Source of the DNA: a virus
DNA length: 22,078 bases
Direction: 5' to 3' (one strand)
Virus record (IMG/VR): IMGVR_UViG_3300048554_000066
Span: 1-22,078 of that record
Positions 18,048 to 20,234 of this stretch are shown one piece after another (position 1 is the first letter of the stretch; every line of letters starts with the position of its first letter). The notes under the pieces are model-generated. The model saw only the letters and a list, made by a program, of their open reading frames with translations, was not told the origin of the DNA and searched no databases. Position numbers and translations under genes: made by a program.

Positions 18048-18779
18048 TTACACATCAGCACCAACTTTTTTTAATTCGGCGATTACGTCTGGCCGGTTTT
18101 GCTTATAATAGGTACGCATCCCGTCGGTCAGCCGTTTCCACTGGTCAAGCGTGACCATCTTGCGCTGCGGCGGTGTCCATTCGCTAGATTGCCCATTAAA
18201 GGGCTTAGAATAGCCTGTGGCGCGCTTTGGCTTCTTTTTGGCATCTCGTATGCACCAGTTCTGCCAGAACGCTGTGAGGTCAATATAAGCGGCTTTATTG
18301 CCGTTCTGTTTATCCCACAACCTTATTGCCTCTAGCACTTCGGCTGCATCCAGACCTTTGCTTTGAGCAAATTGGCGATCAGTCTCATTAGGTTCCCAGT
18401 CAACAACTTTGGTTTTCCCCTTTATTTTATTTATTGTTCTATATTGTTCGGGTGACATATGGGTGTCACTATGGGGTGACATAGCTGTGTCACTAGGTGA
18501 CAGATTGTCACTATGGTTTGTCTGCAATGGTATTACTTGGTATCGGTTGGTTTTGTTGGGTCGCTTTTCTATCGACAACAGCCCCATTTCTTCAAGCTTT
18601 TGCACCTTGCGGATCACAGTTCTTTCGCTGCAATCAGCCGCAATCGACAGCCACTTCATAGACGGCCACGCCACATTATAATCATCATTATAACGGTCAC
18701 AGATGCCAATTAGCACCAGCTTGGCGGTACTATCGCCCAACGATTGTTCCAATGCCCAAGATACTGCTTTAATGCTCAT
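18048..18779 (-). CDS. Replication initiator, lambda O / DnaT-like
   Basis: This 243-residue protein starts at ATG 18779, overlapping the upstream gene by 11 bases. Residues ~17-82 form a winged helix (STAKLVLIGICDRYNDDYNVAWPSMKWLSIAADCSERTVIRKVQKLEEMGLLSIEKRPN, HTH_36-like), as found in phage replication initiators. The middle linker (88-110) holds repeated SD...SP units encoded by a DNA iteron array. The C-terminal region (125-205; VVDWEPNETDRQFA, DLTAFWQNWCIRDAKKKPKRATGY) resembles DnaT/gpO C-terminal helicase-loader parts (W.p..... and F..W.....). In lambda, O binds ori inside its own gene and brings the helicase via P. No helicase loader was identified separately here. Confidence 0.78.
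   Translation of the reverse strand: MSIKAVSWALEQSLGDSTAKLVLIGICDRYNDDYNVAWPSMKWLSIAADCSERTVIRKVQKLEEMGLLSIEKRPNKTNRYQVIPLQTNHSDNLSPSDTAMSPHSDTHMSPEQYRTINKIKGKTKVVDWEPNETDRQFAQSKGLDAAEVLEAIRLWDKQNGNKAAYIDLTAFWQNWCIRDAKKKPKRATGYSKPFNGQSSEWTPPQRKMVTLDQWKRLTDGMRTYYKQNRPDVIAELKKVGADV
18409..18450. other. AT-rich tract beside the iterons, possible unwinding element
   Basis: A strongly AT-rich stretch (tttattttatttattgttc and neighbours, 18409-18450) adjoins the iteron array on its downstream side in the minus-strand gene. In lambda ori, an AT-rich segment follows the O-binding iterons in the O gene in the same order. The role in strand opening is inferred. Confidence 0.5.
18451..18516. repeat. 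Iteron array (replication origin candidate)
   Basis: The plus strand has three direct units at 18451-18474 (24 bp), 18475-18495 (21 bp) and 18496-18516 (21 bp), each with GGTGACA then TGTCACT. In all there are six (A/G)GTGACA heptamers, alternating in strand, starting at 18451, 18464, 18475, 18488, 18496 and 18506. The first two units read GGTGACATA.... then GTGTCACTA. All lengths are multiples of three, so the reading frame of the host gene is kept. Confidence 0.7.
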
Positions 18780-19038
18780 CGTGCAAAATCTCCAAAGTTA
18801 AAGCCGCATAGCCGATAATATCCAACAGGCTGTCAACGTGGCTGCATTTGCTATTTGCAAGCCTTGACAACTTCATAGCAATCATCATCGCGCCAAACTG
18901 CTCCGGCGTCACTTCTTTGCCGACCACCATTGACATCATCTGGCTAGTTTGCGTCCAGTTTTTCCGCAAATCGCCATAACTGGCACCGCGTTCACTTAAT
19001 ATTAGCTGCACTTTTTCCAGTGCTTCAGATCGTAACAT
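18769..19038 (-). CDS. DUF6378-like phage protein
   Basis: This 89-residue protein starts at ATG 19038. The pattern R....YG.....W......M........T...F..MM..MK..RL......DS..DI.GY..L (GASYGDLRKNWTQTSQMMSMVVG, AMKLSRLANSKCSHVDSLLDIIGYAALTLEI) is that of DUF6378, a small phage family related in style to MazG-like helical proteins. It overlaps both neighbours by 11-14 bases, in the early operon. Function is not established; the helical build suggests a nucleotide or protein binding role. Confidence 0.72.
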   Translation of the reverse strand: MLRSEALEKVQLILSERGASYGDLRKNWTQTSQMMSMVVGKEVTPEQFGAMMIAMKLSRLANSKCSHVDSLLDIIGYAALTLEILHDEH

Positions 19039-19447
19039 TTAATTCCCTAACCATATGAAATTCATCAATTGGCACTTCGGCCATTAGCCCATAATCGCGC
19101 TCAATGCCGCGATCCCTTCGACCACCGATAGTCGTGGCAAAATCCACCTTGAAGCTGCAAGCACCGATGTAATCAGTCCAGCGCACTATCAAAAACGTCG
19201 GAATGCCGGTTTCAAAAGCCACTTGCCGCGCATACATCATTTTGTGCAAATGGATCAGTGACGTTTTATAGCGGTCACGCGGAAATGTCCGGCACTTGAC
19301 TTCGGCAAATGCTTCGATCTTGCCTTGCCTTGTTAGGGCAAAATCAAGCTGGCAATACTGTGGCAACTTGACCGGCTCACACTTCCAAGCTGTGCCGATC
19401 TCGCTAATCGTTATCAGTTCCATCTTTAGATTTTGTTCGGTTTCCAT
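19025..19447 (-). CDS. PD-(D/E)XK-like protein
   Basis: This 140-residue protein is taken from ATG 19447, since AGGTGG lies 5 bases before it. A GTG at 19456 is the alternative. It holds the arrangement LPQYCQLDFALTRQGKIEAFAEVKCR: Asp35, then Glu49-Val-Lys51, as in the PD-(D/E)XK nuclease fold. A following helix (LIHLHKMMYARQVAFETGIPTFLIVRW) fits the next fold elements. Phage members of this fold act as endonucleases or Holliday-junction resolvases. It may be active, but only the motif spacing was checked. It is one of three such proteins within 2.1 kb. Confidence 0.6.
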   Translation of the reverse strand: METEQNLKMELITISEIGTAWKCEPVKLPQYCQLDFALTRQGKIEAFAEVKCRTFPRDRYKTSLIHLHKMMYARQVAFETGIPTFLIVRWTDYIGACSFKVDFATTIGGRRDRGIERDYGLMAEVPIDEFHMVRELNVTI

Positions 19448-19456
19448 TGCATCCAC

Positions 19457-19694: not shown

Positions 19695-20132
19695 TTACGC
19701 CCCATTTGCAAGCATCTCCCGAATTATCATCATTGCAGTGTCCAGATCAGTTTCAACGGCATATCGCCAATCATATTGTTCTGCGATATCTTGATTAAAC
19801 AAATATTCAAGCCCGACCAAAGCCGCCACTGGCATCCGCACGCGGGTTTTTTGCCGGTCAAGCCTATAAAACAGCATTGGCATCTTGCCATTACCAGCTA
19901 TTGACGCGGCGGTGCAAACCTGATCCCACCAGTCACCCGAAACGCCGGATTTATATCTTTTGCATTCAATCACAAATGGAAAGTTGCAATCTTCAGTGCG
20001 TAAATCACCAAGATGCTTTTCCCGCGTTTGATCCAGTTCGCGCACAAAATTAAGTCCAAGCTGTTGAAACAACTCGTTTGCAATTTCGTATTCGTAACCG
20101 CGACCTTTGTTTTTTGATTTTGATCCAGACAT
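19695..20132 (-). CDS. PD-(D/E)XK endonuclease, resolvase-like
   Basis: This 145-residue protein is taken from ATG 20132 with the strong ribosome binding site GGAGGG 6 bases upstream. A TTG at 20165 was rejected. Motifs of the PD-(D/E)XK fold are seen in order: GRGYEYEIANEL (an early Glu in the first helix), HLGDLRT (Asp43), FPFVIECKRY (Glu56, Lys58), then SGDWWDQVCTA. The style (GR.YE.E.A..L, GDL, ECK.Y) matches phage recombination endonucleases and archaeal-type Holliday-junction resolvases. I infer a DNA endonuclease used in recombination or branched-DNA removal. It is the first gene of the early minus-strand operon and divergent from the exonuclease gene. Confidence 0.75.
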   Translation of the reverse strand: MSGSKSKNKGRGYEYEIANELFQQLGLNFVRELDQTREKHLGDLRTEDCNFPFVIECKRYKSGVSGDWWDQVCTAASIAGNGKMPMLFYRLDRQKTRVRMPVAALVGLEYLFNQDIAEQYDWRYAVETDLDTAMMIIREMLANGA

Positions 20133-20234
20133 ATCTGCCCTCCAATTTTGCCTAGCATTGCCCAAAACAACCTAATCTGTAAAGCAAAAAAATAACTGTT
20201 GCATTTTGGGAACGATCTGCGCTAGGGTGTTGCT
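20133..20234. promoter_or_regulatory. Divergent control region
   Basis: This 102-base region separates the early minus operon and the recombination plus operon. On the plus strand TTGCAT (20199-20204) and TAGGGT (20223-20228) are 18 bases apart, with TAGGGT ending 6 bases before ATG 20235. That gene has no ribosome binding site, so a leaderless start is possible. CCCAAAA (20161-20167) and TTTTGGG (20204-20210) form an inverted pair about the centre. No convincing minus-strand promoter was found. Other gene-free gaps in the window are 126 bases or shorter. Confidence 0.4.

Follow-up and report, generated by a model that had tools for sequence, protein, structure and literature searches.

A putative intragenic iteron origin in a phage O-like initiator gene, and the correspondence between recognition helix and iteron word in HTH_36 initiators

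The viral DNA analysed here (the window; a linear viral record, 22,078 bases long) contains an initiator gene of the lambda O type that very probably carries its own origin of replication. The N-terminal winged helix of the encoded protein would read an array of dyads lying in the gene itself, the adjoining AT-rich tract would melt, and the replicative helicase would be recruited. Four lines of evidence point to this arrangement: the array, the AT-rich tract, the joint exchange of HTH and iterons among close relatives, and the covariation of the recognition helix with the iteron word across the family. The features of the gene are as follows.

18048..18779, minus strand: O-like replication initiator gene, 243 aa (Pfam and PHROG profiles)
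18534..18779, minus strand: winged-helix DNA-binding domain, residues 1-82 (AlphaFold2 model)
18588..18626, minus strand: predicted recognition helix, residues 52-64, with the Arg57 codon at 18609-18611 (model and Arg57 covariation)
18420..18524, minus strand: linker predicted to be disordered, residues 86-120, whose DNA holds the iterons (pLDDT <50)
18496..18512, minus strand: dyad iteron 1 in gene order, AGTGACA-ATC-TGTCACC, 17 bp
18475..18494, minus strand: dyad iteron 2, AGTGACA-CAGCTA-TGTCACC, 20 bp
18451..18470, minus strand: dyad iteron 3, AGTGACA-CCCATA-TGTCACC, 20 bp, adjoining the AT tract and partly decayed in relatives L007-L009
18409..18450, minus strand: AT-rich tract, candidate DNA unwinding element (A+T content)
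18234..18386, minus strand: helical C-terminal domain, residues 132-182, candidate helicase-recruiting part (model and weak DnaT-like profile match)
18463..18748, minus strand: exchanged block (HTH and iterons), window versus group B relatives L021-L044 (blastn and protein alignment)

The initiator matched PF13730 (HTH_36) at residues 18-68 (E 3.3e-10, 40 bits against a gathering cut-off of 25). Its PHROG matches were phrog_1032 'replication initiation protein' (1.3e-19) and phrog_391 'O-like', together with phrog_8540, phrog_270 and others. The Pfam search gave no PF04492 (Phage_rep_O) match up to E 0.01, and RepA_N (PF06970) was absent from the Pfam matches. On the reading given above, the protein works like lambda O, yet it is not filed in the lambda O family PF04492. 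The AlphaFold2 model of the N-terminal part (pLDDT 94.6, from a 70-sequence alignment) has helices at residues 3-11, 17-28, 41-48 and 52-64 and a wing spanning residues 68-82, with strands at 68-71 and 79-82. Among solved structures, the folds nearest to the modelled winged helix include 4pql, 4pt7 and 5kbj, which we take, partly from the entry titles, to be staphylococcal plasmid initiators. A PDB sequence search returned no credible relative, and the full-length AlphaFold model (pLDDT 62) had no useful PDB match. The C-terminal domain is modelled as three helices (132-140, 145-158 and 168-182) and weakly resembles the C-domains of other HTH_36 initiators by hhalign (probability 82%). One of those C-domains matches PF17948 (DnaT) at 2.2e-6; the window domain had no direct PF17948 match in the Pfam search. 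Given the helical fold and the weak DnaT-related resemblance, helicase recruitment by this domain can reasonably be proposed. Beside the initiator, the incomplete record shows no recognisable helicase or loader gene.

The six alternating (A/G)GTGACA heptamers of the initial annotation were all located in the linker, starting at 18451, 18464, 18475, 18488, 18496 and 18506 (span 18451-18512). They form three dyads over codons 90-110, between the winged helix (1-82) and the helical domain (132-182). Units of 24, 21 and 21 bases had been described; the start-to-start distances are indeed 24 and 21, and the third value would need a fourth copy, which is absent. Over the full 22 kb of the window there are 12 heptamers where 4.07 would be expected, six of them within 62 bp, and 200 dinucleotide-preserving shuffles gave at most 2 heptamers per 66 bp against the 6 observed. 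We also recoded the linker with its peptide fixed, drawing synonymous codons from the window's own usage. At most 4 of the 6 copies appeared in 20,000 trials. Since recoding never yielded six copies, the DNA word, and not the peptide alone, is maintained.

Past the last heptamer in the gene direction, A+T content reaches 72% in the stretch 6-56 nt away, against 53% gene-wide. The same holds for 28 initiator genes of the GTGACA type, in which the 6-56 nt after the array had a mean A+T of 0.64 versus 0.49 for the gene (Wilcoxon p 1.3e-6). GC skew tracked the gene strand and gave no independent origin signal.

Scanning viral contigs with the initiator protein gave 41 relatives in two groups, A (L004-L020) and B (L021-L044). 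Every group A member shares the HTH of the window and has between four and six half-sites in its linker. In group B the C-terminal half is the same (~90% identical), but the HTH is different and there is no GTGACA array; the linker carries CACCCCTGCA direct repeats, or CACCCCCGCA in L021. Upstream, homology between the window and group B mostly ends at 18748-18803, around the start codon (at 19039 in L024), and it restarts at 18462, in the last iteron, or at 18433, in the AT tract. The flanks of the exchanged block are ~80-90% identical in DNA. As judged from these alignments, the HTH and the iterons move together as one block between close relatives. Such joint inheritance means that specificity would change by exchanging both at once. 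The initial annotation had reasoned from sequence to an O-like initiator with iterons in the linker followed by an AT tract, and the family profiles, the AT tract in 28 genes and this block exchange all agree with it. The comparison of repeats across relatives that it proposed gave a consistent picture: relatives without the heptamers have another linker and another HTH.

Two side observations concern these groups. In three group A members (L007:4289-5017, L008:3336-4064 and L009:6001-6741) one or two half-sites are missing from the iteron beside the AT tract, and the peptide is changed accordingly. A type A and a type B contig, L012 (IMGVR_UViG_3300046171_000071) and L030 (IMGVR_UViG_3300046171_000090), each ~27 kb, come from the same metagenome, as though it paid co-resident relatives to differ in replication specificity. 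A pair of this kind is a ready natural experiment.

We then considered HTH_36 initiators more widely. In 17 named-phage genes chosen by homology alone, plus phage C72C1, the linker repeats fell into several classes. A link between Arg57 and GTGACA was formulated as a hypothesis before a larger sample was gathered by N-terminal domains only. This motif-blind choice gave 167 non-redundant initiators, including the window, representatives of groups A and B and the named phages. With class words picked after inspecting the repeats and at least three copies required, the linkers fell into GTGCA (37), CCCCCG (34), GTGAA (26), GTGACA (26), TGTAGG (7), CTGCCC (6) and GGGGTCA (1), with none in 30. About four-fifths of the non-redundant HTH_36 genes sampled thus have a repeated linker word from one of seven classes. 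Linker repeats exceeded a synonymous-codon null (p<0.05) in 75% of 164 initiators; for the HTH of the same genes the figure was 4%. For want of a sufficiently conserved stretch in an N-terminal alignment of 20 diverse initiators, searches were run with smaller groups. Further linker words in many copies were GGTGCAC (14, L448), GAGGCGA (7, L443), GGGGTCA (7, L288) and CGTTACC (7, L301), which are probably further iteron classes. In Aeromonas phage 2_D05 (L292:1501-2243) the initiator frame is interrupted within or beyond the linker that bears the iterons, and the annotation splits it into two CDS, both 'putative DnaA recombination protein'; the break is either a real frameshift or an assembly error in the repeats.

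The class of the linker repeat follows the recognition helix. When GTGACA is counted by itself, Arg57 occurs in 28 of 28 initiators with at least three copies of it and in 17 of the 139 others (Fisher 2e-20), and position 57 ranks first of 82 columns both by mutual information and by a pair-matched test. At matched HTH similarity, residue 57 differs in 84% of GTGACA/other pairs and in 0% of GTGACA/GTGACA pairs; the next-best column has a 47-point gap. The link is present inside the gammaproteobacterial-type group (6/6 vs 3/73) and outside it (22/22 vs 14/66), and after clustering at 60% HTH identity (10/10 vs 5/23, p 3e-5). Since 17 initiators have Arg57 without three GTGACA copies, five of them carrying two, Arg57 is necessary in this sample and not sufficient. 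Inside the gammaproteobacterial-type group, class is predicted best by columns that lie mostly in the recognition helix (51, 53, 56 and 57) and the wing (70 and 72), and GTGAA and GTGCA are told apart best by residue 52. The HTH tree has poor resolution. Its supported branches force only 4 class changes, too few for a formal sign test (independent-pairs analysis).

On balance, we favour the reading that PF13730 phage initiators obey a readable code, in which positions 51, 52, 57 and 72 predict the linker iteron word. Arg57 would go with GTGACA and other residues with GTGCA, GTGAA, TGTAGG, CTGCCC and CCCCCG, the helix and the iterons coevolving or moving as a block. If so, the sequences of many phages and prophages could tell their replication specificity and compatibility.

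The link was also approached from the DNA side. We searched viral contigs for GTGACA-n-TGTCAC-n-GTGACA, with the reversed, non-complemented word as a control; each search gave at least 120 matches, so that the totals are not comparable. Among the matches listed, an HTH_36-type ORF was overlapped by 26 of 120 array loci and by 2 of 119 control loci. Arg57 was present in 20 of 21 distinct helices of these listed matches, and Lys in the remaining one. The 108 overlapping ORFs among the matches listed included phrog_678 'replication initiation O-like' (52), PF13730 (26) and PF04492 (21), and across these families the heptamers lie in different frames and encode different peptides. GTGACA arrays are also seen in PF04492 lambda-O-family genes (L045, L081, L098, L100 and others among the matches listed). 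The helix of these genes reads PRQKVNxAK, that of lambda PVKRCNEAK. There, a different helix seems to recognise this iteron word, which may be a case of convergence.

In the proposed mechanism, the winged helix would bind RGTGACA half-sites through recognition helix 52-64, with Arg57 as the main specificity residue and probably two protein molecules per dyad; the block exchange and the helix-iteron covariation lend such binding indirect support. By analogy with lambda, the bound array would then melt the AT-rich tract next to it, and the replicative helicase would be brought in by the helical C-terminal domain.

The heptamers might instead bind the encoded protein for transcriptional autoregulation or incompatibility, with the origin elsewhere. 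Winged helices of such fold are mostly transcription factors. However, the sites are located far inside the coding region, the promoter-like matches near the gene are no more numerous than chance would give and none coincides with the heptamers, and the AT tract beside the array recurs in relatives. Sites so placed in lambda, SPP1 and pSK41 are origins, and we regard this alternative as unlikely. A role of the dyads as hairpins in mRNA or single-stranded DNA, and not as protein-binding sites, is very unlikely. The window array does fold better than its shuffles (z -3.6), but two relatives and C72C1 are no better than shuffles beyond z -1.4. Half-site order varies widely among genes, all-direct arrays included, group B has direct repeats, and hairpins leave the Arg57 covariation unexplained.

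It is similarly hard to credit that the selected feature is a repetitive Ser-Asp/Ser-Pro peptide with the DNA repeat as its by-product. All six heptamers of the window share one reading frame and so give a regular peptide, but these copies are not recovered when the linker is recoded synonymously, and the heptamers recur in relatives where both the frame and the peptide differ. The linker is predicted to be disordered, and the origin-encoded peptide of pSK41 Rep is dispensable (PMC5703833). The initial annotation had suggested that the DNA repeat shaped the linker, and the recoding and the relatives' frames support this; the case that it named as contrary evidence, a relative keeping the linker peptide after losing the heptamers, was looked for among the relatives and not found. 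Its description of the iterons as frame-preserving holds for the window and is not general, because the arrays of relatives vary in frame and the lambda iterons start in frames 0, 2, 2 and 1; frame preservation in the window is thus a local property. Finally, it is extremely improbable that the array serves recombination, promoting the exchange of N-terminal halves, with no role in initiation: exchange boundaries do fall at the edge of the array and within the AT tract, but iteron class follows the recognition helix and differs between the exchanged blocks, so that the repeats offer no homology for exchange.

An intragenic origin read by the product of its own gene remains the preferred reading, and the genes beyond the initiator were assigned with Pfam and PHROG profiles.

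18769-19038: neighbouring DUF6378 protein
19025-19456 and 19695-20165: two PDDEXK nuclease-like genes
then to 21908 (end of the region), plus strand: PDDEXK-like gene, ERF-type annealing protein and SSB-like protein

The window terminase is nearest to those of Roseobacter phages CRP-821 and kin (~62% identity), which makes a marine roseobacter-type host plausible. The isolate with the closest terminase, Roseobacter phage CRP-821 (L610), carries a primase/helicase gene but no gene annotated as an O-like initiator; replication modules therefore differ between phages with similar packaging genes. No cellular relative of the full-length initiator family turned up in a search of genome contigs, and a host prophage is accordingly not known.

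Origins located within initiator genes have been characterised in a small number of systems, lambda, SPP1 and pSK41 among them, and origin type specificity in lambdoid phages has long been known. Our survey indicates that the intragenic arrangement is common among phage HTH_36 initiators and that its class follows the recognition helix. This suggests a sequence-based route to locating phage origins and to predicting replicons of shared specificity, and mutagenesis could test how winged helix and sites change together. What appears to be new is the family-wide correspondence between helix and iteron, which is testable; neither a broad HTH_36 survey nor the Arg57-iteron link was found in the literature searched, which covered few subscription journals and in which the heptamer turned up mostly within primers.

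The closest functional parallel is lambda O with ori-lambda, where inverted-repeat iterons likewise lie within the initiator gene, between the sequences for its DNA-binding part and its C-terminal part, and are followed by an AT-rich tract. The lambda record has annotated 18-bp iterons inside O at spacings of 20, 24 and 23, and then 72% A+T, in line with the order that the initial annotation had recognised. That annotation was wrong in setting the alternating inverted pairs apart from the lambda design, because the lambda iterons are themselves near-perfect 19-bp inverted repeats (18-19 bp) that bind O dimers (PMC5043065, PMC7466680). The differences lie elsewhere. The window initiator belongs to HTH_36 (PF13730) and lambda O to Phage_rep_O (PF04492); the window iteron is RGTGACA-n3/n6-TGTCACY and the lambda iteron ATCCCTCAAAACGAGGGA; the window has three dyads in one frame and lambda four iterons; and no P-like loader gene was recognised beside the window initiator.

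SPP1 gp38 binds oriL repeats within its own gene 38, where an AT-rich unwinding element is present (PMC6316719). The window resembles SPP1 in having repeats within the initiator gene and an AT-rich tract; SPP1 differs in the direct repeats of oriL, a second origin oriR, the dedicated loader gp39 and the helicase gp40. Vibrio phage D67, Psychrobacter phage Y8A and Bifidobacterium phage PMBT6 have linker GTGACA arrays and Arg at position 57 like the window, although their HTH is only 36-40% identical and the array frames and orders and the C-terminal domains are different; no report on their origins was found in the literature searched.

The pSK41 kind of RepA_N initiator resembles the window protein in its N-terminal winged helix, which binds Rep boxes centrally in rep, in its separate C-terminal domain and in a linker encoded by the origin; folds of this kind are also among the nearest to the window winged helix. 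In pSK41 the origin lies within rep, and in pPR9 the N-terminal domain and origin have been naturally exchanged for a PF13730 domain while the C-terminal domain is >97% identical (PMC5703833). Unlike the window phage, these are plasmids of Gram-positive bacteria, and pSK41 has another N-terminal family; their C-terminal domain is known to bind DnaG. Taken with these systems, the sequence evidence gives good support for placing the locus in a known class, the intragenic iteron origin of the lambda ori type, at which replication would start.
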